From assembly GCF_030064675.1 (NCBI RefSeq), contig NZ_CP116413.1, positions 3,442,001 through 3,506,000 on the forward strand: a DNA stretch of 64,000 nucleotides, read 5' to 3'. This DNA is from Crossiella sp. CA-258035. GTDB lineage: Bacteria > Actinomycetota > Actinomycetes > Mycobacteriales > Pseudonocardiaceae. Of the stretch, positions 50,967-64,000 are shown in pieces (position 1 is the stretch's first letter; each line of letters starts with the position of its first letter). The translations under genes were made by a program, and so were the position numbers. The notes under the pieces were generated by a model. The model ran no database searches and had not been told where the DNA came from. It saw only the letters and a list, made by a program, of their open reading frames with translations.

Positions 50967-51582
50967 AGCGTGCCCTTTGGGAGTGTTCCGCCATGCGCGG
51001 ATCGAGCACTGTGGGCTCACAACTTTTCCCCTGACCCGAATTTGAGCGTGGCGGGACATTCGCCTGTACAAATTCCCGATACTGCGAAGCTGTCTCACAC
51101 TGACGCTAGTGTTACTGACCCGTTCGGGTCATTCGTGACCTTAGTGACCTACGCAGCGTTACCGGCCTGGCCGCGCGTCGTAACTCGAGGCGGTCACGGC
51201 CTGGGTCTCCCTGTCGGCCAATCTCCGCTCTGGTGCTTCGAATTCGGGGTAGTACGCGCCGGAGGAAATAGTGAGTGGTGGTGTGTGCTGTATGTGGGTG
51301 GTTCGTGTCCGTCACAATGGCGGTGCCTGGTGGCGGGCAGTGACGTTCGGGCGTCTGTTTTGTGGGTTTGGGTGGGGATTGTGCTCGCGTGGGGGTGACT
51401 GGCGTGGGTGTGTCTTGTCAGCTCTGGTGAGGGGGCGAAGGCTGCGGTGTTGAGGGTGTTGGTTTGTTCCGGTGCCCTCTGTGTGCGGCACCGGGCAGTG
51501 ACCCCAGACCCCGGTCACCACACCACCCCCGCAGGTCCGTGGCGTTGGTCCCGGACCCCGTGCAACGGGTGGAAGGTTGATC
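50967..51582. promoter_or_regulatory. Intergenic region between divergent exported-protein genes
   Basis: 616 bases without a convincing gene. It contains the palindrome TGACCCGTTCGGGTCA (51116-51131, 7-base arms) followed by two GTGACC words, a plausible operator. From ~51240 on the top strand is markedly G/T-rich. It must carry promoters for the leftward Thr/Pro-rich and duplicate genes and the rightward Gly-rich gene. Confidence 0.45.
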
Positions 51583-52908
51583 ATGAGGTCGACAACACGA
51601 ATGACCACTGCAGGTCGGGCCGGTCGGGCCCTGATCGGATTGGGCACCGCGGCCGGGTTCGCGCTCCTGGCTCCGGCTCAGGCCTGGGCACTGCCGCCGG
51701 GGTGCACCCAAAGCGGCGCCAACTTCACCTGCACCGCGGGGATTCCCGCCGGGCAGGTCCTGGACGGTACCGCCGTAGCCAACGTCATCACCATCACCGG
51801 CGGTGCGGTGAACGGCACCATCAACGGCCTGGCTGGCAACGACACGATCAGAGTCACCGGCGTCGCCGGCGCCGCGGGCGCCAACGGTCCGCCGGGGGCC
51901 AACGGCACCGTGGGCACTCCCGCGGGCAGTGCCGGTGGCAACGGCGGAGCCGGCAGCGTCGGCGGTTCCGGGGTGGGCAGCACCGGCATCATCGACGGCG
52001 GTGCCGGCGTGGACTCCATCATCGTTCTGGCGGGTGCCGGCGGCAACGGCGGCAGCGGCGGCCAGGGCGGGATCGGACTGGCCAGCGGCGCTGGAGGCGC
52101 CGGAGGTAACGGTGGCGTCGGCGGGATCGGCGGCGTGGGCAACGCCGGGACGATCACCGGTGGCGCCGGCAACGACACCGTCACTCTCACCGCCGGCCGG
52201 GGCGGCAACGGCGGCCTCGGTGGCCTGGGTGGCAACAGCGGCAACGTCGCTGGCGGCGCTGGCGCTGGCGGCATCGGCGGAGCCGGTGCGGCTGGAGGTG
52301 TCGGCAATTCCGGGAACTTCAACGGCGACCTGGTCGACGCGGGCCTGGACAACGTCACCGCCAACGGTGGTGCCGGCGGGACCGGTGCGGCCGGTGGCAA
52401 CGGTGGCTGCGGTCACGGCGGCGGCGCCGGTGGCGTCGGCGGTGCAGGCGGTGCCGGCGGTAACGGCAATGCCGGGACCATCAGCGGCGGGGCCGGTGTC
52501 GACACTCTCAAGGCCAACGGCGGGCTCGGCGGCAATGGTGGCGTCGGCGGCAAGGGCGGCAACGGCAAGTCCGCCGTCCAGCCCGGCGGCAACGGCGGTG
52601 TAGCCGGTGCTGGTGGTGCCGGCGGCATCGGTAACGCCGGAACCCTGACCGGTGGAACCGGCGTGGACAGCATCACCGCCACGGGCGGCAAGGGCGGCAA
52701 CGGCGCCGTCGGCGGCAACGGCGGCACCGGCTGCAGCGCTTTCGGTGGTCCTGGAGGCCTCGGAGGCGCCGCGGGTGCCGGTGGTCTGGGTAACTCCGGA
52801 ACCATCAACGACGGCGCAGACACCATCTCCACCCCCTCCGGCGCCAACGGCCTGGCCGGCGGCAACGGCATCGCCGGAATCAACAACGGCGGCATCTGCA
52901 CCTGCTGA
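51583..52908 (+). CDS. Exported Gly-rich repeat protein mixing RTX-like and PGRS-like segments
   Basis: 441 residues. Signal peptide: RSTTRMTTAGRAGRALIGLG with a hydrophobic run ending AQAWALP. After a short Cys-containing segment (GCTQSGANFTCTAG), six or so units of ~55-65 residues follow. Each begins with an RTX-like strand such as NAGTITGGAGNDTVTL, IIDGGAGVDSIIVL, or NAGTISGGAGVDTLKA, and continues with a run of GGxGGNGG. The protein ends NNGGICTC. ATG 51583 has GGAAGG upstream. The GGxGxDxx elements are those of Ca-binding parallel beta-rolls; the Gly-Asn runs resemble mycobacterial PE_PGRS. Probably a Ca-stabilised extracellular or surface protein. A perfect hairpin lies behind it. Confidence 0.82.
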   Translation: MRSTTRMTTAGRAGRALIGLGTAAGFALLAPAQAWALPPGCTQSGANFTCTAGIPAGQVLDGTAVANVITITGGAVNGTINGLAGNDTIRVTGVAGAAGANGPPGANGTVGTPAGSAGGNGGAGSVGGSGVGSTGIIDGGAGVDSIIVLAGAGGNGGSGGQGGIGLASGAGGAGGNGGVGGIGGVGNAGTITGGAGNDTVTLTAGRGGNGGLGGLGGNSGNVAGGAGAGGIGGAGAAGGVGNSGNFNGDLVDAGLDNVTANGGAGGTGAAGGNGGCGHGGGAGGVGGAGGAGGNGNAGTISGGAGVDTLKANGGLGGNGGVGGKGGNGKSAVQPGGNGGVAGAGGAGGIGNAGTLTGGTGVDSITATGGKGGNGAVGGNGGTGCSAFGGPGGLGGAAGAGGLGNSGTINDGADTISTPSGANGLAGGNGIAGINNGGICTC

Positions 52909-53038: not shown

Positions 53039-53980
53039 TCGCCTTGGCGCGGGGGCCGCGGCTACTACGGCGGCGTGCTGGCGCTCATCGGTCACGACGA
53101 GGCCGGGCAGCAGTGCATGGACTCCGCCATCGTGATCCGCACCGCCGAAATCGACCGGGCCGGCCGGGTGGAGATCGGTGTCGGCGCGACGCTGGTGCGC
53201 CACTCCGACCCGCTGTCGGAGGCAGCCGAGACCCACGTCAAACTCGCCACCTTGCTCTCGGCGCTGAAGGAACGCGCGGTGCGCTGGCGGGACCACCCCG
53301 ACGTGCAGGCGGCGCTGGACCGGCGCAACACGCGGATCGGCGCGTTCTGGTTCGCCGAACGCGACACCGGGCCGCGCCGAGACAGCCGACTCGCCGGCAA
53401 GCGAGCGCTGGTGATCGACGCCGAGGACACCTTCACCGCCATGATCGCGCACCTGTTGCGCTCGCTCGGGCTGGAGGTGGTGCTCCGCCGCTTCGACGAG
53501 GAGAACTCGACCGAGTACTACGACGTCGTGGTGCTCGGCCCGGGGCCCGGCAACCCAGGGGGCCACACGCATCCGAAGATCGCGCGGCTGGCCGAGGCGG
53601 TGCGGTCGCTACTGAGCAGAGGCCAGCTGTTCCTCGCGGTGTGCCTGAGCCACTAGGTGCTCCGCGGCGTGCTGGGGCTCGAACTCCACCAGCGCGAGGT
53701 GCCGAACCAGGGTGTGCAGCGTGAGATCGAGCTGTTCGGGGACCACGAGGTCGTCGGGTTCTACAACACCTTCGCCGCCCGCAGCACCGATGACCGCGTG
53801 GAGCACCCGGAGGCAGGTCTGGTCGAGATCAGCCGCGACCCACTGACCGGCGAGGTGAACGCCCTGCGCGGTGCCCGGTTCGCCTCGATGCAGTTCCACG
53901 CCGAGTCCGTGCTGACACTCGACGGCCCGGCCACCCTGCACCGGCTGCTCGACACCATGCTCCGCGTGCCCGAGGTGTAA
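53039..53980 (+). pseudogene. phzE: PhzE-like ADIC/anthranilate synthase, truncated and with a nonsense codon
   Basis: Only the C-terminal part of a TrpE-TrpG fusion of the PhzE type is left. It begins inside the chorismate-binding domain (GRGYYGGVLALIGHD, MDSAIVIRTAEID, VGATLVRHSDPLSEAAETH), with ~350 residues and the start missing. A linker leads to the class I glutamine amidotransferase (RLAGKRALVIDAEDTF, VVVLGPGPGNPG, nucleophile region FLAVCLSH). TAG at 53654 replaces the Gln codon that normally follows this His. The frame then continues to the triad His-Glu in MQFHAESVLTL and a stop at 53978. PhzE makes 2-amino-2-deoxyisochorismate for phenazines. It cannot work here. Confidence 0.85.
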
Positions 53981-54477: not shown

Positions 54478-54992
54478 CCCTTGCGGAACCTCGTGGGTTG
54501 AGGTGGGCGAGATTGACCACACGGTTGCGCCGCGCGTTGGGACGGCCCGCGTTCGCCGGTTGTTCGAAACCTCACGTGCCGGGTCCGCAGGCTGGGCCTG
54601 GTGAACTCTGGATGCGAGCCGAGCACCACAGTGCGCCGTCGTGCCGAATGGGCCGGTTCGGCCCATTCGTCCCGTGGGCCGTTGGGCCCTTTGCGGGCGG
54701 CGCGGCCGGGAGCAGCGCGACACCTGCACCCAGGCACCGGGCGAGTCGTTGGGTGGCCGGGTGTGGTCACGGGGCAGGTGGTCCTGCGCCCGGCGCTGGG
54801 TGCGTTAGCTGGTGTCAGGTCCCGCGGCACGGTGCCGTGGGCGCGTACCTCGACAGTTCCATAGCGGTCCAGTCCATTCGCTCCGGGCCAGGGGAGCGGC
54901 CATGATCTTCGCTGAAGGTGGTGGAATCCCCTGGCGGCCGCACGAGGCGGCCAGGGGCCGTTGCCGATGTGCCCTGGCGCGCCAGGGCGTTG
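54478..54992. promoter_or_regulatory. Intergenic region before the Crp/Fnr gene, with CCTGGC palindromes
   Basis: 515 bases with no convincing gene. The right part carries two related sites: CCCCTGGC (54928-54935) and GCCAGGGG (54950-54957), 14 bases apart, and the 18-bp perfect palindrome GCCCTGGCGCGCCAGGGC (54971-54988). The rest, 54478-54920, shows nothing I recognise. Confidence 0.6.
54971..54988. promoter_or_regulatory. 18-bp palindromic operator before the Crp/Fnr gene
   Basis: GCCCTGGCGCGCCAGGGC, perfect on both halves, ending four bases before the ATG at 54993. Its core CTGGCGCGCCAG is repeated exactly at 59283-59294, before the AAA+/VWA pair. Placement at the start codon fits autorepression, perhaps on a leaderless or very short-leader transcript. 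Confidence 0.75.
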
Positions 54993-55721
54993 ATGCGAAA
55001 CGACGATGTTGTGCAGCCCGGCGAGCCGGGCTCCGGTTGGCGGCGTTCCCCGCTGTTCAGTCATCTGTCGCCGGAGCAAGCAGAGGCGTTGCGGCAGCGG
55101 ATGCGGCTCGAGGTGTTCGAGCCGCGTCGGCGGCTGTTCGCCCAGGGCGAGGCCGGTGATCGGGTTTATGTGGTGGACAAGGGCGCGGTGAAGATCAGCC
55201 TTGAACGGGACGGGCAGTCCGCGCTGGCGCAGGTGGTGCTGGGGCCGGGCGATGTCGTTGGCCTGTATCCGTCGCTGGGTCCCGGTCCGCGCGATTCTAC
55301 TGCGGTCGCGGCCTCGGAGGTGGTCACCGCGAGCATCCTGTGTGCGGAGCTGGAGCAGTGTCACCAGGAGCGGGCGGCGATCAACTTCGGTCTGGCGCAG
55401 CAGTTGTGCCAGCGGCTGTTCGAGTTCGACGTCCAGCGGGTGGATCTGCTGATGCTGGACACGGCGGGCAGGCTGGCCAAGTTGCTGGTTCAGTTGGCCC
55501 GGCGGTTCGGCGCGGCGGAGAACGGCACGATCCGGGTCCAGCTGGCGCTGAGCCAGAAGGAGCTCGGTGAGCTGATCGGTGTCAGCCGGGACACGGCCGG
55601 GGCCCGGTTGCGGGAGTTCGCCGAGCGGGGCTGGATCGCCAAGGCGCCGGGAGTCCTGCACATCCTCGCGCCGGAAGAACTGGCAAGGCGGGCGGGTCCG
55701 TCCAAGTCCATAGTGGACTGA
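54993..55721 (+). CDS. Crp/Fnr family transcriptional regulator
   Basis: 242 residues. The N-terminal cyclic-nucleotide-binding-type beta roll covers ~20-130 (RRSPLFSHLSPEQAEALRQR, RRRLFAQGEAGDRVYVVDKG), a long dimerisation helix follows, and the C-terminal winged helix has LALSQKELGELIGVSRDTAG as recognition segment. ATG 54993 is taken as the start because homologous sequence begins there; an open extension to 54918 would translate the operator. The usual cAMP phosphate-cassette residues (GE-x6-RSA) are not evident, so the ligand may be something else. I infer that it binds the CTGGCGCGCCAG sites before itself and the AAA+ gene. Confidence 0.9.
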   Translation: MRNDDVVQPGEPGSGWRRSPLFSHLSPEQAEALRQRMRLEVFEPRRRLFAQGEAGDRVYVVDKGAVKISLERDGQSALAQVVLGPGDVVGLYPSLGPGPRDSTAVAASEVVTASILCAELEQCHQERAAINFGLAQQLCQRLFEFDVQRVDLLMLDTAGRLAKLLVQLARRFGAAENGTIRVQLALSQKELGELIGVSRDTAGARLREFAERGWIAKAPGVLHILAPEELARRAGPSKSIVD

Positions 55722-55878
55722 CGGGCTGGACCGCGTCGCGTTGCTGGGGCGCCGGGGCTCATTGGGGCTCCGGCGTTCCACCCCGGAGTGTGGGTGGGTG
55801 TTGCCGAGCGCCTGGTGGGGCACCCGGCAACACTGCGGAGTGATGTGCTCCACGCGTACCCGATCGTTCACGTCTCGC

Positions 55879-57795
55879 CTATGCGTGCAGTTGCTTTTCG
55901 ATGGCGTGCTGGAGGAGGCCGGGGAGTTGTGGTGTGCGGTCGGCGGGCAGGATCAACGTGTTCGGCGTGAGCTGTCGTAGTTCGGCGGCGTCGACGGAGC
56001 CGAGCCCAATGGCGATGGTGATGATGTCCCCGGGTGCGGCGGTAAGGCGTTGCTGGGTGTGCTGGCGATCGGCGTCGCCGAGCACGGCGTCGGTCAGGAT
56101 CGCCAGCATTCTCCGATCTCGGTGTCCGGGGCGGTGGTTGTCCAGTTGGGACAGTCCCCAGGCGACTGCGGGTGCCACGGCGGTTCCGCCGCAGACGCTT
56201 TGGGCCAGGGTGAGCAGTTGTTCTGCCCGGTCGGTGGAGAGGGTGTCGTCGAAGCCGCGGATGGTGAGCACTTCGTCGGTGAAACCCGCGAGTGCCAGGT
56301 CGGCGTGTCTGCCCAGTGCGTCGATGGCGCGGAGCAGGCCCGCCGTGGTGATGTGGCAGGCCTTGGCGGGTGCCGGGGCGTGGGAGAGCATCGATCCGGA
56401 GCAGTCCACGACCAGGGCGAGGGCGAGGCGGTTGCGGCCTTGGCCCATCCGGTGGTCCAGCCAGATGTTCGGATCGCGTTCGCCGCCGTGGGCTGCTTGA
56501 ACGTAGACGCGGGTGGCCTGGTGGTGTAGGTCCAGGCGCGAGCCTGAGGTGTGTGGTCGTTGGCGCCGGGCGGAGCCGGTCAGCAACGGGCGGAGCACCG
56601 TCTCCAGTTGGGTGGCCAGGGGTGGGATGAGTTGGGTGTCCCCTGTGACGTTGTCGTGGAAGTGCGCTCTGGGTTGGTGTGGGAACCATTCGGCGGGCAG
56701 TAGTTCCCGTTTCGCCAGAGTGTCCTCGGTCAGCGCGGCTGCGGGATGGTTGCGGCGGGCTTGTTGGGCGGCTTGTTCGGCCTCGGCTTGGGCTTCTTGC
56801 TGGTGTTGTTCCCAGTCGGCCTCGGCTTGTTCGCGCAGCGGGGAGTCGGTGATTTCCTGGACGGCGTCTTCTGGGGTCCAGGAGTTGCCTTCCTGCTGCT
56901 GGCTGTCGTGGGTTCCGGTGCAGCCTCGTGGATCGGGGACCTGGCTGAGCGCGTCGTGCAGCTGTTGGTCGAAGTCGGTGTGGTCGGGGGGTTGGTCTTG
57001 TTCGTCCTGCCAGTGAAAGGGGTTGTGCGCGTCGGCGGCTTCGGTGGTGTCGGGGTGCTCGGCGTCGACGATCGCGGTGTTGGCGGTGTCGGGTGTTGAG
57101 TTGTCGTCGGCGGGGGTTGGTGGTGGTTGGTGCCGGGTCCAGCCGCGCAGCAGGTCGAGGAGACGGTCGAGGAGGTCGGTTTCGGTGTGCCAGTTGTAGT
57201 TGCGGGCCTCGATCATGATGGCCAGCACTTGGGGCCACAGTTGGGCGTAGAGCGGGTGGGTGGGGGCTTGCACGGTGGTGCCGTCGGATTGCCGGAGCCT
57301 GCCGCAGCGCAGCATGGCCAGTCCCCAGTTGAGTACGCGGAGTGCGTTGTGGTGGGGGAGTTCGGCGGGTTCGAGGTCGGCTGGTGGGATGAGGGGTTCG
57401 TCCAGTACGCGGTAGGCGATGTCGCGGTTGAGGGGCCAGTGGGCCAGGGTGCGCAGGACGGGGGAGTGGTCGATGCGGATGTCGGCGAGGATGTTGGCCA
57501 CCAGGCCGCGCAGGGTGTTGGCGGGGTGGGCGCGGTAGCCGCGGACCATTTCCCAGGCGTGCATGGCCTCGTGGCCGGCGAGGTAGGAGATCAGCTGGTA
57601 CTTCAGCGGCTGGGTCAGGGGTGGCCACAGCTGGCCGAAGTGTGCGGTGGCGAGTTCGTTGGTGGTGGGGAAGTGGACGTGGAGTCCGGCGTCGTCGTGG
57701 CCGGTGGCGGGTTGTGCTCCGGGGGTGATGAAGAGGGCGTGGCCGGGCACGAGGGCGCGGAAGGTCTGGCGCACGATGCGGTCGTAGGCGCTCAT
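55879..57795 (-). CDS. VWA-domain protein with N-terminal HEXXH metallopeptidase-like domain
   Basis: 638 residues. The N-terminal ~130 residues contain LISYLAGHEAMHAWEMVRGY, a zinc-type HEXXH at 75-79, followed by LVANILADIRIDHSP, resembling the N|LEDxRI segment of CobT/DUF2201-like proteins. An acidic, Gln/Glu-rich central region (~200-380) is probably a linker with coiled coil (REQAEADWEQHQQEAQAEAE). The C-terminal von Willebrand A domain has the MIDAS DCSGS at 464-468 and LAILTDAVLGDAD. Its ATG overlaps the AAA+ gene stop, so the two are made together. MoxR/VWA pairs act as metal-chelatase-like or protein-remodelling machines; the peptidase-like domain suggests processing of a target. Confidence 0.83.
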   Translation of the reverse strand: MSAYDRIVRQTFRALVPGHALFITPGAQPATGHDDAGLHVHFPTTNELATAHFGQLWPPLTQPLKYQLISYLAGHEAMHAWEMVRGYRAHPANTLRGLVANILADIRIDHSPVLRTLAHWPLNRDIAYRVLDEPLIPPADLEPAELPHHNALRVLNWGLAMLRCGRLRQSDGTTVQAPTHPLYAQLWPQVLAIMIEARNYNWHTETDLLDRLLDLLRGWTRHQPPPTPADDNSTPDTANTAIVDAEHPDTTEAADAHNPFHWQDEQDQPPDHTDFDQQLHDALSQVPDPRGCTGTHDSQQQEGNSWTPEDAVQEITDSPLREQAEADWEQHQQEAQAEAEQAAQQARRNHPAAALTEDTLAKRELLPAEWFPHQPRAHFHDNVTGDTQLIPPLATQLETVLRPLLTGSARRQRPHTSGSRLDLHHQATRVYVQAAHGGERDPNIWLDHRMGQGRNRLALALVVDCSGSMLSHAPAPAKACHITTAGLLRAIDALGRHADLALAGFTDEVLTIRGFDDTLSTDRAEQLLTLAQSVCGGTAVAPAVAWGLSQLDNHRPGHRDRRMLAILTDAVLGDADRQHTQQRLTAAPGDIITIAIGLGSVDAAELRQLTPNTLILPADRTPQLPGLLQHAIEKQLHA

Positions 57796-59273
57796 GCCAG
57801 CTTTCCTCCGTAGCTGGGGAAGGCTTCGGTGTACTGCTCGTCGGTGAGGCCGTCGGGGAAGGGCAGTGCGGAGATCAGGGGAGTGCCCCAGCCGCGCAGG
57901 GTGTGCACGGAGGAGAGGGTGTGCAGGGCGAGGGTGGGGTCGCGGAGCAGTTTGCCGGCGAAGACCTCCACGGCGATCTGGTTGTGTGACTGACCGATGA
58001 CGAAGCGGGTCATGGCTTCGCGGGCAGCCCTGGTGCCCCAGCTGTAGCGCGCGGAGAGCATCGGGTCGCGGTTGAGCAGCGCGATGGTGTAGGTCAGCAA
58101 GTTGGCGAAGGTGGTGATGTCGGTGATGGTGGAGGCTCGGTCGGCTGGGTTGATCTGTCCGCAAACGATGCGCTTGTCCAGTACCGAGATTCCGGTGTGG
58201 ACGGCGTCCTGGATCAGGGCGTTGGTGCCGAGTTCGCGGACGCTGACGACGTGCCAGCGGTCGAGCCATTTTCCGGCCCAGGCGACGCTGGGCCGGTTGG
58301 TGGTCACCGCGATCAGGGCCTCGGGGTGGATCGGGACGTCGACGGTGCCGCCTTCGACGGGGTAGACCGCGCGGAACCTGGTGGCCGAGGGGTTGAGCAG
58401 TGGTTCGAGTTCGTCGAGGACGTCCAGGCGATCTTCCCAGCGGTGCAGGTCCTCCAGCACGATCACGCAGGGGTGTTGCACGGCTTGGACGAACAGGCTG
58501 TGTTCCAGTCTGGTGGCGCCGTTGTGGAGGCCGATGGTGAACGGTTTGGCTTGGTCGGGGCTGGTGATGGGCAGGTGTGGCACCTTGCGGTCGGCGGCGA
58601 TCTTGGCCAGGCTGGCGGACTTGCCGGTTCCGGGTGGTCCGGCGAGCAGGAACACCGTCCTGCCGATCCAGCTGAGGTTGGTGATCTGCTGGCAGGCCGC
58701 TTCGTTGACGACCGCGCCGCGCAGGCTGCCGGGATCGGGTACCAGTGCGGCGAGTTCTGGGGTGGCTGGTGGGGTGGTGGCCGGTTCGAAGGGCAGTGCG
58801 AGTGGGGTCAGTGCGGATTTGGCTGGTTCCCAGCTTCGGGTGTTGCTGGTGAAGATGAAGGTTTCGCCGATGTCGCTGCCGGGCACGTCGGTGTCCGGTA
58901 CGAGTTCGGTGTCGTTGAGGTTGAGTGCGGCCATGACCAGGGCGCCTGCCTTGCCGGGCAGGGTGGTTGCGGCTTCGATGAGTGACCAGTGGTGCCGGCA
59001 CGGTTGGGTGTCGCATTGGCCGCAGGCCCGGTCTGGTCCGGTGGGTTGGGGGATGGAGATGAGCCTGACGATGTGCACGGCGCCCTTTGCGGGTTCGGAG
59101 AGTTCGATGCGCACCTTGGTGAGTTGCCGGGTGATGTGGTCCTGGATGAAGGCGGCGTTGAGGGTGACCACGGTGCTCGCCTCGCCGGTCAGCAGTACGG
59201 CGTGGGCGCCGTCGAGGTTGGCCCAGAGGGCCTGGGCGTCCTGACGGCGTTTGCTCATTGTCGTTCCGGCCAT
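57792..59273 (-). CDS. MoxR/CobS-like AAA+ ATPase with N-terminal Cys/His cluster
   Basis: 493 residues. The N-terminal ~200 residues are not ATPase: they carry C84-x2-C87-x4-C92-x-H94 (ACGQCDTQPCRHHW), close to a SWIM-type zinc finger. The AAA+ domain follows with Walker A GPPGTGKS at 212-219, Walker B VIVLEDLHRW near 270, and sensor-1-like ALIAVTTNRPS. The C-terminus ends in a helical lid. ATG 59273 follows GGGAAAAACC. It is the first gene of a coupled pair with the VWA protein. MoxR-VWA operons often include a separate SWIM protein; here the finger appears fused to the ATPase. Substrate unknown. Confidence 0.85.
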   Translation of the reverse strand: MAGTTMSKRRQDAQALWANLDGAHAVLLTGEASTVVTLNAAFIQDHITRQLTKVRIELSEPAKGAVHIVRLISIPQPTGPDRACGQCDTQPCRHHWSLIEAATTLPGKAGALVMAALNLNDTELVPDTDVPGSDIGETFIFTSNTRSWEPAKSALTPLALPFEPATTPPATPELAALVPDPGSLRGAVVNEAACQQITNLSWIGRTVFLLAGPPGTGKSASLAKIAADRKVPHLPITSPDQAKPFTIGLHNGATRLEHSLFVQAVQHPCVIVLEDLHRWEDRLDVLDELEPLLNPSATRFRAVYPVEGGTVDVPIHPEALIAVTTNRPSVAWAGKWLDRWHVVSVRELGTNALIQDAVHTGISVLDKRIVCGQINPADRASTITDITTFANLLTYTIALLNRDPMLSARYSWGTRAAREAMTRFVIGQSHNQIAVEVFAGKLLRDPTLALHTLSSVHTLRGWGTPLISALPFPDGLTDEQYTEAFPSYGGKLA

Positions 59274-59280
59274 GGTTTTT

Positions 59281-59297
59281 CCCTGGCGCGCCAGAGG
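59281..59297. promoter_or_regulatory. Palindromic operator before the AAA+/VWA pair
   Basis: CCCTGGCGCGCCAGAGG; the core CTGGCGCGCCAG (59283-59294) is identical to that in front of the Crp/Fnr gene. Extra half sites GCCAGGG (59310-59316) and CCCCTGGC (59352-59359) lie further into the same divergent gap. Confidence 0.75.
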
Positions 59298-59495
59298 CCC
59301 GGGTGGGTCGCCAGGGAGTTGTCACCACCTTTGTCGCAGGTTGGTGGGCGCCCCCTGGCGTGGGGCGTGGTGATCGGGTTGCGCTGTGGAGCTGTCAAGG
59401 TGCGTGTCTGCGGGAGGTCCGCGGACGCGTTGGGAGCTAACGCGGTCGGGCCGCTGTGGCCGCGTTGTGCTGTGGGCGCCCGACTGTGCAGGGGT

Positions 59496-60098
59496 ATGAG
59501 GCTGCGACGAGGGTCCGGGCGGGATCCGCATCAGGAGTTGCTCGACTACATCGACCGGATGGAACCCGGTTGGCAGGAGCGGGTCGGCGCGGTGCTGCAG
59601 GCGACCCTGCCGGGTGAGCGGGTGTGCGGTTATTGGCTGCGCACGGCCACGGTGGAGGACGCCGAGGCGGGGAAGGCGGGCACCTTGGATCTGGTGGTGG
59701 CCAGCGTGAGCGTGTTGGCGCACTTGCAGTTTCTGGCCCTGCCCAGTCCTCGGGGGTGGCGGCTGGTGACCCGGACTCAGGTGTGGCCGTTGGCCCGGGT
59801 GCGTTCGGTGGCCACGGAGACCTTGTCTGCCGGGGCAGGGGGGCAGGAGGGGTTGCTGGTGCAGATCTGGCCGCCGGAGGCTGAGTGGGAGGTGGAGCTG
59901 AATCCGGCGGGGGAGTCGCCGGTGGATGGGTCGCAGGCTGGGCGGATGTTGGGCGCGGTGCGGGGATCGGTGTTGCGGATCGTGGTGGAGCCGGTGGAGG
60001 AGGAGGTCGCGATCGCGCGGCGGGATCGTCAGCGTGCCGAACGTGGCTTGTTGGTGACCTTGGCCAAGGCGATCCACAGTGGACTGTCGGGCGAGTAG
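59496..60098 (+). CDS. Unknown protein divergent from the AAA+ ATPase gene
   Basis: 200 residues from ATG 59496 (MRLRRGSGRDPHQELLDYID), preceded by AGGGG. Mixed alpha/beta with a Trp-rich beta core: GERVCGYWLRTATVEDAEAG, LQFLALPSPRGWRLVTRTQV, LLVQIWPPEAEWEVELNP. The end is a basic helix (IARRDRQRAERGLLVTLAKA). There are no membrane segments or signal peptide, so it is probably cytoplasmic. The frame is open far upstream, but only as a shadow of the ATPase gene. It shares the divergent gap holding CTGGC sites and is probably in the same regulon. Family not recognised. Confidence 0.65.
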   Translation: MRLRRGSGRDPHQELLDYIDRMEPGWQERVGAVLQATLPGERVCGYWLRTATVEDAEAGKAGTLDLVVASVSVLAHLQFLALPSPRGWRLVTRTQVWPLARVRSVATETLSAGAGGQEGLLVQIWPPEAEWEVELNPAGESPVDGSQAGRMLGAVRGSVLRIVVEPVEEEVAIARRDRQRAERGLLVTLAKAIHSGLSGE

Positions 60099-60161
60099 GG
60101 CGGGGCTCGTCGCCTGCGTGTGGACGGGCGGCAGGCGACGAGCGCCGTGGTGCGGGTGGGG

Positions 60162-61799
60162 TCATCGGGCCAGGGACTGGCCGTTCGTGTTCGGTGTCAG
60201 CCGAGGGGGCGTCCAGTTCTTGAGTGCCGGGTCCAGGGGTACCCATCGGTCCTGGCTGGGTTCCAGGGTCCCGTCGGGGCGGAGTACGGCTGGTGGGGCG
60301 AGCACGTAGGGCGGTGTGGTCCACACGTGTTCCCGGGGTGTGGGGTGTGCTGCCACGGTGGCGGGCGGTGAGGTCTCGGCGAGGTGGAAGGTGCCGTTGT
60401 GGAAGCGCAGCGGGAACTCCGCGCTGGCCACTGATCGGCCGGAGACGCGCAGCACCGCTTCCTCGGGTGGGTTGGCCCGCCCGTCGGGGTCGCGGGCGAG
60501 CATGAGGTAGACCGTGGCGGTCTCGAAGGTCGAGCGGGCCCCGTTGATCTCAGTCGGTGAGGGTGGGTCCAGCGGGGGCCGGTGGATCTTGCCGGTGCGC
60601 TGGTCCACGGTGATCTTGGATGGTGGTTCGCGGCGGGCGTTGACCTGTTCGCAGACCACGACGTTGCAGTGCAGTCCGGCCAGTTCGCCGAAGCGGTGGG
60701 CGTCCAGGCCGACCCAGCCGGGGTTGAAGATCCGCATGGAGGTGTCCAGGCCGCGGACGAGCTCCTCGCAGGTGGCGAAGTCGTTGGCGGCGGCCAGCAT
60801 TGAGGTCAGGTAGTCGATGACGATCCCGGCGAACCAGCAGTCGGCCACCGCGAGGTGGTGGCGGTGGGCCCAGTGCAGGTTGGCTGCGGCGAAGGTGCGC
60901 AGCTCGTTCTTCATCGCGCGCAGCCGGGCGGGCGGATCGCCGCCGACGCGGGCGAAGAACTCCTTGCCGAACAGCAGCAGCCTCGGCCGTCCGTGCGGTG
61001 TGGGTTGCCGCAGCGGGCTGTCCGGCTGCTGGTAGTCCTGGAGCATGGCCAGCAGTTCGGCGCGGGTCAGCTCGGTGCAGAACACCAGTTGTTGGGCTTC
61101 CGGGCGGGTGTGGGCGGCGGAGGCGCAGATCCGGCTGATCCACCACCCGGCCAGTCTGGTCTTGCCGACCTTGGTCTTGGCGCCCAGCAGCACGAGCTCA
61201 TCGCGCCAGTCGGCGCGGTGGTGCAGCAGGGCGTCCAGCCGCGGGTGCACGGCCAGGCCGGAGCCGGTGGAGAGTTCGGCCAGCTCGGCGGTGAGCACCT
61301 CCGGGGTGTGCTCGGTGTAGGGGTTGATGTTGTCCACGGGGTCGTCGCCGGTGCTCATCAGTTCGCCGAGCTTGACGACCTGCTCTCCGGCTTGGTCGTG
61401 CTCGCCGTTGCGGTAGGCGTGGCGGGCGGTGGCGAAGGTCGCCTCGATCTGGCGTTCGCGCCAGCGGGCGTGGATCGCGCGGGCCAGCAGCGCCACTTCC
61501 TCAGCGACGGTGGGCAGCAGCGGGTGCAGCTGGTTGGCTTCCCGGTCCCACCAGGCCAGGGCACGGTCCAGGGCCGGGTGCAGGTCGGTCTCGACGGTGT
61601 AGCGGATCCCGAGTCCGGTCAGCTGCGGTCGGGTGTCGCGGATGGCGCGGAGCTGGTCGAAGAGGGCACCGAGCTCGAGGTCGATGAACTCCTCGGCGCC
61701 GGTGGAGATCACCGTGGTGTGTCCTTCGGCGAGGGCGGGTTCGCGGACCAGGCAGGCCACCAGAGCCAGTTCGTCCTGCTGTCCGGTGCAATCGGGCAC
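60162..61799 (-). CDS. DnaB/RecA-like replicative-helicase-type ATPase
   Basis: 545 residues. An N-terminal helical part (DELALVACLVREPALAEG) looks like the DnaB N-domain. The RecA-fold domain has a P-loop VLLGAKTKVGKTRL (Walker A around 206-214), a second segment QQLVFCTELTRAELLAMLQ, a Walker-B-like FAGIVIDYLTSMLAA, and CNVVVCEQVNARREP matching the DnaB motif after Walker B. GTG 61799 is preferred because GGAGG lies six bases upstream; the frame runs open to 62573 as shadow. No primase, initiator or integrase gene adjoins it here. It may be an element-encoded helicase or a RadA/DnaB-type motor used in defence. Confidence 0.72.
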   Translation of the reverse strand: MPDCTGQQDELALVACLVREPALAEGHTTVISTGAEEFIDLELGALFDQLRAIRDTRPQLTGLGIRYTVETDLHPALDRALAWWDREANQLHPLLPTVAEEVALLARAIHARWRERQIEATFATARHAYRNGEHDQAGEQVVKLGELMSTGDDPVDNINPYTEHTPEVLTAELAELSTGSGLAVHPRLDALLHHRADWRDELVLLGAKTKVGKTRLAGWWISRICASAAHTRPEAQQLVFCTELTRAELLAMLQDYQQPDSPLRQPTPHGRPRLLLFGKEFFARVGGDPPARLRAMKNELRTFAAANLHWAHRHHLAVADCWFAGIVIDYLTSMLAAANDFATCEELVRGLDTSMRIFNPGWVGLDAHRFGELAGLHCNVVVCEQVNARREPPSKITVDQRTGKIHRPPLDPPSPTEINGARSTFETATVYLMLARDPDGRANPPEEAVLRVSGRSVASAEFPLRFHNGTFHLAETSPPATVAAHPTPREHVWTTPPYVLAPPAVLRPDGTLEPSQDRWVPLDPALKNWTPPRLTPNTNGQSLAR

Positions 61800-61854
61800 C
61801 TCGTACCTCCGAGGGTGTGGCGGTAGGCGAGCGGTTGCTCGTGCCCGGCTCGAT

Positions 61855-61903
61855 GTAACGCGCGAGCACCGCGGTGGCCGCCGCCGTGGCCGCGCCGCGT
61901 TAC
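61855..61903. promoter_or_regulatory. Inverted repeat in the divergent gap before the DnaB-like gene
   Basis: GTAACGCG (61855-61862) and CGCGTTAC (61896-61903) are perfect 8-base inverted arms 33 bases apart, between the leftward DnaB-like gene and the rightward gene at 62004. Possible paired operator half sites. Confidence 0.4.
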
Positions 61904-62003
61904 CTGCGGTTGGTCCGAACAGGGACGCCCGGTGGCCACTGGCGCCGGGGTTGTTCTGGCGCTGCGCACCGGCTCGTCCCCGAGTTGAGAGGAGGTCACG
62001 GCG

Positions 62004-62615
62004 ATGGTGGGTAATCTTGCTTCCTGGGCGCACCCGGGAACGATCATCGGCGTCGAACCGCGAGCCGACGGCAAATCGCACGGCAACCACTGGCTGGCCG
62101 ACGACGGTGCCGACACCCCCTGGCATTGGGTCGGCTGCAATCCGGTGCACGGCACCTACCACCACGGCGCGCACTGGGCGCTGCCAGTGGCGGAGCTGCC
62201 CGCAGCGGAGGTGGTGAACAGCCGCTACCACGCGTTCTTCCTGCTGTGGGGCAGGCCGGAGCTGCGGGCCGGCGAACCCTTGACCGACAGCGACATCGCC
62301 ACAGTGGAGGCTGCGCTGGAGGTCATGGCCCAGCGGGCGCTGGTGCGGCTGGACCCCAAGGATGAGCTGCGGGTGCCGGTGCTGGATGTGTTGTTCCGGG
62401 CACAGGCCGATGGGGTGTGCTCGTGGGTGAGCGCCCGCGACGGCGATCTCGGGCACGAGCCGGTGCGCCAGCCCGCGGCGCTTGCCGGTGTGCGGCAGCG
62501 GCTGGCTGACCCGCGGGTGCTGGCGCGCTGGGCGCATCGGGACGGGATCGCCTGGGGCCGTCCGGCCCTGCACCTGCCCGTACCTGCCTGGCTGGTTACC
62601 GCTGGGAGGCCGTGA
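62004..62615 (+). CDS. Unknown protein upstream of the window-end gene
   Basis: 203 residues, soluble. ATG 62004 follows GAGAGGAGG. It opens with SWAHPGTIIGVEPRADGKSH, then HWLADDGADTPWHWVGCN and VHGTYHHGAHWALPVAELP: many His and Trp in the first 70 residues. The second half is helical, with ATVEAALEVMAQRALVRLD. The His/Trp-rich start could bind metal or nucleic acid, but I recognise no family. The next gene's ATG overlaps its stop by one base (TGATG), so the two are coupled. It diverges from the DnaB-like gene. Confidence 0.7.
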   Translation: MVGNLASWAHPGTIIGVEPRADGKSHGNHWLADDGADTPWHWVGCNPVHGTYHHGAHWALPVAELPAAEVVNSRYHAFFLLWGRPELRAGEPLTDSDIATVEAALEVMAQRALVRLDPKDELRVPVLDVLFRAQADGVCSWVSARDGDLGHEPVRQPAALAGVRQRLADPRVLARWAHRDGIAWGRPALHLPVPAWLVTAGRP

Positions 62616-64000
62616 TGGGTGCGGTGTCTGTTGTGGACAGTCCAGAGCTGGACCTGTTCGGCGATCCGGTCGAGCAGGCCCAGGAGCTGCTGTACTACCT
62701 GGACGGCGCTCTGGTGCCGCTGCGGGTGCGCCGTGATGATCTGCTGCGCTGCCTCAGCGACGACCTGGAGCAGCTGGAGCGCCTGGAAGTGGCGATGGCG
62801 GTCACGGCCAGGCAGTTGCGGCCATCCACCGCGCTACCCGGATCGGCTGACGGGCCGCGGCGGCGAGCGGTGAACCAGGTGCTGGAGAACCTGGCCGCCA
62901 CCACCGCGGTGTTGTTCCGCCTGCACACCCTGGTGCACACCCAGCGCGGCAACACCGCGGTGCTGGCCGCCGCGGCGGCGGCGCACCAGGTGCTGCACGG
63001 TCGCCTCGGCTGCGACCGGACGGATCCGCTGGCCTTCACCGGGCCGCCGCTGGGGCTGCCCGCGCGGTTGCCGCTGCTGTTCGCCGCGTTGACCACGCTG
63101 CGGGAGTCCGCGGCCAACCTCGCGGCCGGTCGCGGCCACGGCGGGACCGCCCAGGAGGTGTTCGAGCAGGATCTCCGGCGGCTGCGGCGCTGGGCTGAGC
63201 ACGACCCGCAGTTGCGGGCACCGGACCAGCTGGAGCCGGTGCCGGGCGCTCCTGACCGGCTCCACCAGGTCCGGTGGGCGCCGCGGCCTGCCACACCCCG
63301 GCTGAGCGAGCACGTGGAGGAGGTCTGCGACTACGAGACGTTGAGCGCCGAGCAGCTGACCCTGATTCACCGCATGCTCCGCACCGGCCAGGGACCTGTG
63401 CACACCGCGGGCGTGGCCAGCACCCATCGGCGGCGCCTGGAGGGACGGGATGCGGTGATCTCGGCCGCCCGGTTCGGCATCTGGGTCCAGCAGAGCTTAC
63501 TCGCCGGCCGCGTGGACACCTGGATCAGCGAGGCACTCGGGCTGGCGGAGTCCGAGGCGAGGGATCCGAAACGGGTGCAGGAGCAGATCCGCCGCCAGGT
63601 CGTGGCCGGTGGCGAGCTGCGCAAGCTGAGCAGCTCGGCGCGGGCGAGGGCACTGCGCATCGACTCCGCCTGGCTGGATCCGGGCTTCAGCGGTGTGCCG
63701 CCGGATGCGGTCCGGCTCTTCGCCGCCCTCTACAGCCCGGTGGTGGGCGGCTGGTACCAGATCGTCCGCGGTGACGTGCACGACTTACTCGGTCTGACCC
63801 CGATGCGGCAGGTGCACTACGCGGCCCTGATCGGGCACCTCGCCGACGGCGGCACGCTGTCGGATTTCGCCAGCCTGCAGGGAAGGCGGTACCGGGACGT
63901 GCTGTTGGCCTGGCAGGAGATGGTCGACTACGCCGGGGAGCTCAACCAGCTCGCCGAACTGACCGCGACCGCGATCGGCGGCCTGCCTCGCCGCCTGGTC
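62615..64000 (+). CDS. Large unknown protein, truncated by window end
   Basis: At least 462 residues, open to the edge. It starts GAVSVVDSPELDLFGDPVEQ. The protein is almost all helical and rich in Leu, Arg and Glu (DDLLRCLSDDLEQLERLEVA; VEEVCDYETLSAEQLTLIHR), with no signal peptide or membrane helix. Two regions look like repeated helical bundles (residues ~30-190 and ~220-460). A small insertion motif DPKRVQEQIRRQVVAGGEL lies near residue 310. The ATG overlaps the stop of the preceding gene. No family recognised; possibly a scaffold or nucleic-acid-binding partner of the neighbouring ATPases. Confidence 0.7.
   Translation, partial: MGAVSVVDSPELDLFGDPVEQAQELLYYLDGALVPLRVRRDDLLRCLSDDLEQLERLEVAMAVTARQLRPSTALPGSADGPRRRAVNQVLENLAATTAVLFRLHTLVHTQRGNTAVLAAAAAAHQVLHGRLGCDRTDPLAFTGPPLGLPARLPLLFAALTTLRESAANLAAGRGHGGTAQEVFEQDLRRLRRWAEHDPQLRAPDQLEPVPGAPDRLHQVRWAPRPATPRLSEHVEEVCDYETLSAEQLTLIHRMLRTGQGPVHTAGVASTHRRRLEGRDAVISAARFGIWVQQSLLAGRVDTWISEALGLAESEARDPKRVQEQIRRQVVAGGELRKLSSSARARALRIDSAWLDPGFSGVPPDAVRLFAALYSPVVGGWYQIVRGDVHDLLGLTPMRQVHYAALIGHLADGGTLSDFASLQGRRYRDVLLAWQEMVDYAGELNQLAELTATAIGGLPRRLV

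Follow-up and report, generated by a model that had tools for sequence, protein, structure and literature searches.

The von Willebrand factor A (VWA) domain of midasin works with an AAA+ partner. NorD is described, in the available part of the source, as working with the AAA+ partner NorQ. Group 2.2 jumbo phages carry, according to the text available of their description, a MoxR AAA+ protein whose VWA partner bears a fused metallopeptidase at its N-terminus, and a role in virion assembly is proposed for this pair (PMC7824862). MoxR-vWA conflict systems are noted for actinobacteria (PMC7159879), and the features given for actinomycete integrative and conjugative elements (AICEs) include a RepSA, RepAM or Prim-Pol replication protein (PMC3218068), in both cases in the available part of the paper. 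Here, we report on a gene cluster in a 64,000-nt stretch of Crossiella sp. CA-258035 (contig NZ_CP116413.1, positions 3,442,001 to 3,506,000; the window, meaning the whole stretch, with its numbering continued for positions past 64000) in which a MoxR/zincin-VWA gene pair lies beside a DnaB-like helicase gene, and which very probably forms the left part of a replication module carried by large integrative Crossiella elements. No description of such elements in Crossiella was found in the open-licence literature.

The pair and the DnaB-like gene lie on the minus strand. The VWA protein (55879..57795) has an N-terminal zincin-like HEAxH region and a C-terminal VWA domain with a metal ion-dependent adhesion site (MIDAS; PF00092, E=2.3e-5), and the MoxR/dynein-like AAA+ ATPase (57792..59273, with its start at 59273 or 59258; AAA_5, E=7.2e-7) has a zinc-finger-like Cys/His motif in its N-terminal part. 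The DnaB-like open reading frame (ORF) follows at 60162..61799, and a large helical protein is encoded on the plus strand from 62612 or 62633 past the window end to 64579 (655 or 648 aa, depending on the start). Extension downstream, which the initial annotation had suggested, places after the helical gene the genes for a 141-aa protein, a sigma-like 241-aa protein (Sigma70_r2 E=3.1e-4, below the Pfam cut-off), a 247-aa protein, a family-A DNA polymerase (PolA; DNA_pol_A E=1.5e-18, Pol I structures E=1.3e-9) and a primase (phrog_47 E=4.2e-18, with CHC2 and Toprim matches just short of the cut-off). Farther along are genes for PAPS-reductase-like, DpdA, WhiB, YqaJ (E=4.6e-20) and RecT (phrog_148 E=6.2e-52) proteins and an SSB-like gene recognised by eye. 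The PAPS-reductase-like gene adjoins DpdA (E 2.4e-59) at about 71-73 kb, likely as a 7-deazaguanine DNA modification cassette, and such genes also adjoin a second helical gene in one element of another Crossiella genome (G449).

Five Crossiella genomes, with labels including G449, G450 and G451, carry eight copies of the element, one or two per genome. The DnaB-like protein, searched at E<=1e-5 over 390 genomes of the family, has matches in all five Crossiella genomes and in 0 of the 385 others, and the AAA+ profile, searched at E<=1e-12 over 396 genomes of the phylum, has a single match, in the window's own genome, and none in the remaining 395. A pattern scan of the species-genome collection yielded three loci, all in Crossiella; it missed some known copies and so is no proof of absence elsewhere. 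The gene order that the initial annotation proposed to test in other actinomycetes is thus kept in eight copies within Crossiella, but without a DnaB-like match in the rest of the family.

The stretches around all eight DnaB-like matches were retrieved, 38 element proteins were mapped by tblastn onto seven of these regions, and genes were re-called on all eight with a simple caller, so that start codons and small genes are rough; the G451 and G450 contig 39 regions end near contig or stretch ends, where genes not found may still exist. The genes for the VWA, AAA+, DnaB-like, helical, 141-aa and sigma-like 241-aa proteins and PolA are found in every one of the eight copies and always arranged and oriented alike, except that three copies contain additional polymerase or helical paralogues; the primase gene is present in seven, the eighth contig stopping before it. 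Since order and orientation are identical in every copy at pairwise identities of 29-98% across the AAA+, VWA, DnaB-like and helical proteins, the arrangement is more than chance. Identity matrices correlate with that of the AAA+ protein for the VWA (r=0.92), helical (0.90), DnaB-like (0.88) and PolA (0.76) proteins (n=8, Mantel p<=0.008), and likewise for the sigma-like (0.86), HerA-like (0.85), primase (0.76), 141-aa (0.75) and ParA (0.63) proteins (n=7 or 8 and p<=0.011 throughout), which indicates that the parts travel together. The distance from the AAA+ to the DnaB-like gene ranges from 0.7 to 15 kb, with other genes inserted in some copies, and in G451 the helical gene stands about 31 kb away from the 141-aa gene. 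Outside Crossiella, a polymerase relative occurs in Nonomuraea and Embleya (33-35% identity, no synteny to the element), and other element proteins (XRE, HxlR, WhiB-region, weak SSB) match only at scattered places. One element in G449 has three tandem PolA-like genes (7053043-7058637), two of them without HDEF and all three failing the simple motif-A pattern.

Integration repeats are seen in two copies. The G449 copy ends in a 46-bp exact repeat of the 3' part of a tRNA-Val gene (7039274-7039319 and 7192376-7192421), giving an element of 153 kb, and the G450 contig 40 copy ends in a 39-bp exact tRNA-Asn repeat (157533-157571 and 295833-295871), giving 138 kb, or 133 kb if the boundary is taken at another repeat, of 37 bp, located at 163021. 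In both, an integrase gene and a small xis-like gene, recognised by eye, lie between the tRNA gene and the VWA/Crp side, and an integrase-like gene (by eye) lies beside the Crp gene in G451. The initial annotation's alternative that the cluster is part of an integrated element is therefore borne out. Just outside the right repeat in G449 lies another integrase-like gene, so a second element may sit there in tandem. In copies whose ends are not defined, shared content extends over about 61 to 141 kb. The window's own copy spans about 55-196 kb and has no convincing attachment (att) site and no integrase that we could find; it looks decayed, because ParB was not found in the gene calls and ParA has lost its Walker A motif (by eye).

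A second block beyond the replication genes is present in seven of the eight copies, the eighth contig being short, and comprises ParA, a HerA-like ATPase with a length of about 1256 aa and, recognised by eye, a number of small membrane proteins. ParB occurs in six copies, and the ParA2, sigma-like, SecA-like and NlpC/P60 proteins in a different six. The HerA-like ATPase belongs to NF033849 (1112 bits in another copy against a curated cut-off of 650, and 1089 bits for the protein encoded within the element of the window's genome), and its Walker A sequence GSTGRGKT is invariant in the six copies aligned. Together, these data suggest a module composed of a DnaB-like helicase, a family-A DNA polymerase, a CHC2/Toprim-type primase and core proteins, with the AAA+/zincin-VWA pair as its constant companion.

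The AAA+ stop and the VWA start overlap by 4 bp in seven copies and by 1 bp in the eighth, so that translational coupling is likely, in agreement with the coupled pair of the initial annotation. Among seven aligned copies, residues C84, C87, C92, H94 and H95 and much of Walker A of the AAA+ protein are invariant (spacing CxxC in six and CxxxC in one), as are H82, E83, A84 and H86 (HEAxH), the downstream ADxRxD and the MIDAS residues D471, S473, S475, T545 and D576 of the VWA protein. The AlphaFold2 (AF2) model of the VWA protein is poor overall (predicted local distance difference test score, pLDDT, 61), and its fold matches span residues 402-645 only, the zincin-like part being known by its motif; this region matches the midasin MIDAS domain (Z 21.2, root-mean-square deviation (rmsd) 3.3, 216 aligned residues) and the NorD VWA domain (Z 18.8, rmsd 2.6, 189 aligned). 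The VWA domain is thus predicted to have a fold of the midasin/NorD kind, which works with AAA+ rings, consistent with action together with the adjoining AAA+ protein.

The NorD VWA domain being among the nearest folds, the pair could instead metallate or mature a redox or metal enzyme, as do NorQ/NorD- or CobS/CobT-like proteins, its linkage to replication genes reflecting only a shared element backbone. Many phages and plasmids carry MoxR- or CobS-type AAA+ genes, as a search with the AAA+ protein of plasmid pB6464 indicated. The core block, however, has no recognised conserved metalloenzyme gene, the nearest constant neighbours being the DnaB-like gene and its partners, and the Crossiella protein departs from NorQ/NorD and midasin, with which it shares a VWA fold and an AAA+ partner, in its zincin-like N-terminal region and its mobile-element context. 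We regard metal insertion, or a general role as a backbone chaperone, as the main rival to a replication role and as rather doubtful.

The label DnaB-like, rather than DnaB, is used because Pfam DnaB_C (PF03796), which matches the host DnaB, does not match the element's ORF; the ORF has no Pfam match at E<=0.1. It matches phrog_19 (DnaB-like replicative helicase) at E=5.7e-4, and its Walker A motif GA(K/R)TKVGKT, DYLTSM and EQVNARR are kept in all eight copies, with the pattern of a fourth motif in seven; these RecA-type motifs stand in what we take to be DnaB order.

Several observations weigh against reading the cluster as the replication module of an integrative element. Alignment of the DnaB-like protein to the host DnaB with hhalign covers only 62 columns (prob 59) and a PDB profile search with it found nothing, its assignment being drawn from a weak profile match and motifs. 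The polymerase motif HDEF is kept in all eight core polymerases, but a simple motif-A pattern is found in only four, and the primases have an EGxxD-type pattern in seven of seven but the DxD-type HDxDDAG in only three; some of these failures may come from the strictness of the patterns. A 448-aa conserved protein first read by eye as a sliding clamp was dropped, having no match in Pfam, PHROGs, NCBIfam or PDB, and neither a replication origin nor an initiator was identified. The integrases were recognised by eye, and att repeats are defined in only two of the eight copies; a search of five of the six copies without clear ends (the sixth, G451, on a 92.7-kb contig, lay outside it) gave no convincing repeat in the window's copy or in the four others, the best direct repeats being of 15-22 bp. 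Synteny is, moreover, no proof of contact between the AAA+/VWA pair and the replisome. Two further points are phage-like: a portal match (phrog_104) in one of the eight copies, and an NlpC/P60 protein whose C-terminal hydrolase domain gives PHROG matches to several tail families, among them phrog_329 (E 1e-26), and to one head family.

These last points bear on the possibility that the element is a phage or decayed phage and the pair a virion-assembly chaperone, as proposed for the group 2.2 jumbo phages. The RecT, YqaJ, DpdA and SSB-like genes are also phage-like, and PHROG matches exist for the SecA-like protein (phrog_32805, of unknown function, E 7e-134) and for the HerA-like protein (phrog_7035, E 4e-6). 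Closest to the pair is one on viral contig L099, with HEAGH (by eye), which matches the Crossiella AAA+ protein (hhalign prob 96.8) and VWA domain (prob 93.6). As in the jumbo phages and L099, the Crossiella AAA+ gene adjoins a VWA gene whose product has a metallopeptidase-like region at its N-terminus, recognised in Crossiella by motif only; unlike in those, the AAA+ protein has an N-terminal Cys/His motif, and the pair stands in an integrative element, beside DnaB-like, PolA and primase genes, where no full virion gene was found. The portal match is a fragment of 119 of 550 positions, other matches lying elsewhere in the genomes, and was located by the phrog_104 search, the ten-protein scans not recovering it. 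The large terminase (TerL) model phrog_2, the one model used, has no match in any element interval and matches in one of the five genomes, on another contig. The NlpC/P60 matches cover only the common hydrolase domain that NCBIfam names too, a tblastn search of the phage collection with the HerA-like protein gave no match, and the ParA/ParB, SecA-like and HerA-like genes are in keeping with a plasmid-like backbone. Scans against PHROGs and Pfam covered 100 proteins chosen from 193 listed in two elements (the rest mostly named already, and ten border-crossing proteins unlisted) and gave the best 25 of 65 and the best 25 of 56 families, which does not exclude structural genes. A prophage was rejected, as the one TerL model has no match in the intervals and the portal match is a fragment in one copy, and we consider the virion-chaperone explanation improbable.

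L099 also bears on the linkage of the pair to the helicase, since the initial annotation took homologous pairs regularly found without the DnaB-like gene as evidence against one unit. Inspection by eye of 15.5 of the 51 kb of L099 revealed no DnaB-like gene, while pair and DnaB-like gene are linked in all eight close copies; distant relatives of the pair thus seem to exist without the DnaB-like gene, and close copies have both. Scans of viral contigs with single AAA+ and DnaB-like sequences gave no relative, and tblastn of the AAA+ protein against the plasmid and phage collections was likewise without a match. AAA+ matches in 129 other genomes of the order were short, mostly of 69 residues in the Walker A region, and were taken as FtsH-type and not as relatives.

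With a defence or stress module as one of its two options, the initial annotation had pointed to bacterial conflict systems, and a MoxR-vWA ternary conflict system or another defence module would be in keeping with the occurrence of such systems in actinobacteria, with a weak bpMoxR match (Pfam, E=0.032), with CRISPR-like genes (by eye) in one element and with a Wadjet operon beside the window's copy. None of the VWA, AAA+, DnaB-like and helical proteins, however, has a PADLOC match at E<=0.01; replication enzymes neighbour the pair in all eight copies; and the VWA protein has no variable effector domain, its N-terminal HEAxH region being constant in the seven copies aligned. As to a third component of a ternary system (VMAP, iSTAND, FtsH, beta-propeller), the neighbouring 200-aa, 203-aa and helical proteins gave no Pfam match above cut-off. 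The defence module, with nothing for it from PADLOC or Pfam, was set aside as very improbable. Because the downstream neighbours are replication genes, PADLOC has no match to the four proteins searched and integration repeats are present in two copies, we read the element as carrying a replication module and not a defence module; as an explanation of the locus as a whole this is probably the best, and the interpretation of the initial annotation is partly supported.

Like AICEs, the elements have an actinomycete host, an integrase (by eye) and, in two of eight copies, tRNA-gene repeats. They differ in size (138-153 kb), in encoding a helicase, primase, polymerase, ParA/ParB and HerA-like ATPase, and in that no FtsK/SpoIIIE Tra protein was detected within their intervals: PF01580, the one model used, matches elsewhere in all five genomes but not inside the intervals, and assignment to the AICEs was rejected for this reason. 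The one relaxase family searched, PF03432, has no match in any of the five genomes. NF033849 has one match over 296 genomes of the phylum, in the window's own genome, and in the plasmid collection it is found on two clostridial megaplasmids, pRUMAL01 and pB6464, whose HerA-like proteins match the Crossiella profile at E 4e-117 and 2e-114. As in the Crossiella elements, the HerA-like gene of both is preceded by a run of genes that are similar in size and followed by one for a ParA2-like protein (E 4e-12 and 4e-17), and upstream lie genes for a DNA polymerase of their own, a primase-like protein and SSB; among the small genes nearby there is only one profile match (pRUMAL01 c14, E 1e-4). Unlike the Crossiella elements, they are circular plasmids of 420-436 kb with DnaE (DNA polymerase III alpha) in place of PolA and with Tad-type secretion genes. 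On pB6464 a MoxR-like AAA+ gene adjoins a HEAFH-VWA gene about 11 kb downstream, and these are weakly similar to the Crossiella pair (hhalign prob 36 and 12). It is conceivable, if somewhat unlikely, that the elements form a distinct class, neither AICE nor relaxase-type integrative and conjugative element nor prophage, with a private replisome whose helicase would be loaded or recycled by the MoxR/zincin-VWA pair and with transfer by a HerA-type translocase that has relatives on clostridial megaplasmids.

Gene content, synteny, the two pairs of integration repeats and the conserved catalytic motifs (with the exceptions given above) are observed directly, and from them we infer autonomous replication, a remodelling step and its target, proteolysis and regulation as follows. 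The integrase would excise the element, which would then copy itself with its own helicase, primase and polymerase; ParA/ParB would partition it, and the HerA-like ATPase may move it. The AAA+ ring, aimed by the VWA MIDAS domain, would remodel, load or unload a replisome protein, the first candidate targets being the DnaB-like helicase and the helical protein, with the zincin domain perhaps cleaving a target. The timing would be set by the Crp/Fnr and sigma-like genes. A replication-linked role of the pair is our best guess because it stays linked to genes for helicase, polymerase and primase and the searches yielded no full virion gene; that it acts on the replisome is put forward tentatively.

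All seven genes that the initial annotation had grouped were confirmed in their places, and the following three complete the window's share of the cluster. A Crp/Fnr-type regulator (54918..55721, plus strand; cNMP_binding E=2.8e-14, HTH_Crp_2 E=3.7e-13, Pfam; the span is that of the longest frame, and a later start at 55101 is possible) is convergent with the VWA gene. A 200-aa protein (59496..60098, plus strand) is encoded divergently from the AAA+ gene. A 203-aa core protein (62004..62615, plus strand), divergent from the DnaB-like gene, has a tblastn match in all seven other copies; the simple caller found it in seven of eight overall, and it has no family match in Pfam or PHROGs. Of the single regulated unit once proposed, the core order therefore holds in eight copies, but Crp (adjoining VWA in five of eight) and the 200-aa gene (in four of eight) are not core. 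Likewise, the two divergent promoter regions correspond to two divergent intergenic regions (AAA+/200-aa and DnaB-like/203-aa), but the Crp/VWA arrangement is convergent, and a pattern search of 55500-62700 gave no sigma-70-type promoter, a result of little weight for an actinomycete. The AF2 model of the helical protein (pLDDT 75.7) is mostly helical and has no Foldseek match at E<=0.001 (best E 0.092); a fold assignment was dropped, as the best VIA-align Z of 8.8 lies within the range common for helical models.

Further genes were observed in and around the elements. At the left edge of the window's element, an amidotransferase-like gene (53075-53980, by eye) is present as two adjacent frames (193 and 107 aa) and may be broken, and a 443-aa glycine-rich repeat protein (51577-52908) lies directly left of the element. 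Just right of it is a Wadjet type I operon (JetA E 9e-140, JetB, JetC, JetD; 3639637-3646445, or 197637-204445 in continued numbering), with JetC called without its N-terminal part. In the G449 element, CRISPR type I-E-like genes (by eye) lie between the primase and the YqaJ/RecT block, with further cas-like genes before HerA, and a lanthipeptide-type cluster also lies between primase and YqaJ/RecT (Lant_dehydr, LANC_like and PCMT among the matches listed). DUF4192 (PF13830) was found in six of the 100 proteins scanned from two elements, among the matches listed.

Roles have been proposed for the MoxR/VWA pairs of phages and plasmids, and the available parts of the sources describe no proven target, save that the archaeal ATV pair is cited for tail assembly; the family name of the HerA-like protein, serine-rich protein, states no function. 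The Crossiella elements appear as a large backbone with its own replication genes, and their eight natural copies, down to about 30% identity, fix the partner set and give a minimal block for testing the action of the pair on helicase or polymerase. Should they be a distinct class with a private replisome, the phage pairs credited with virion assembly would also be replication factors.

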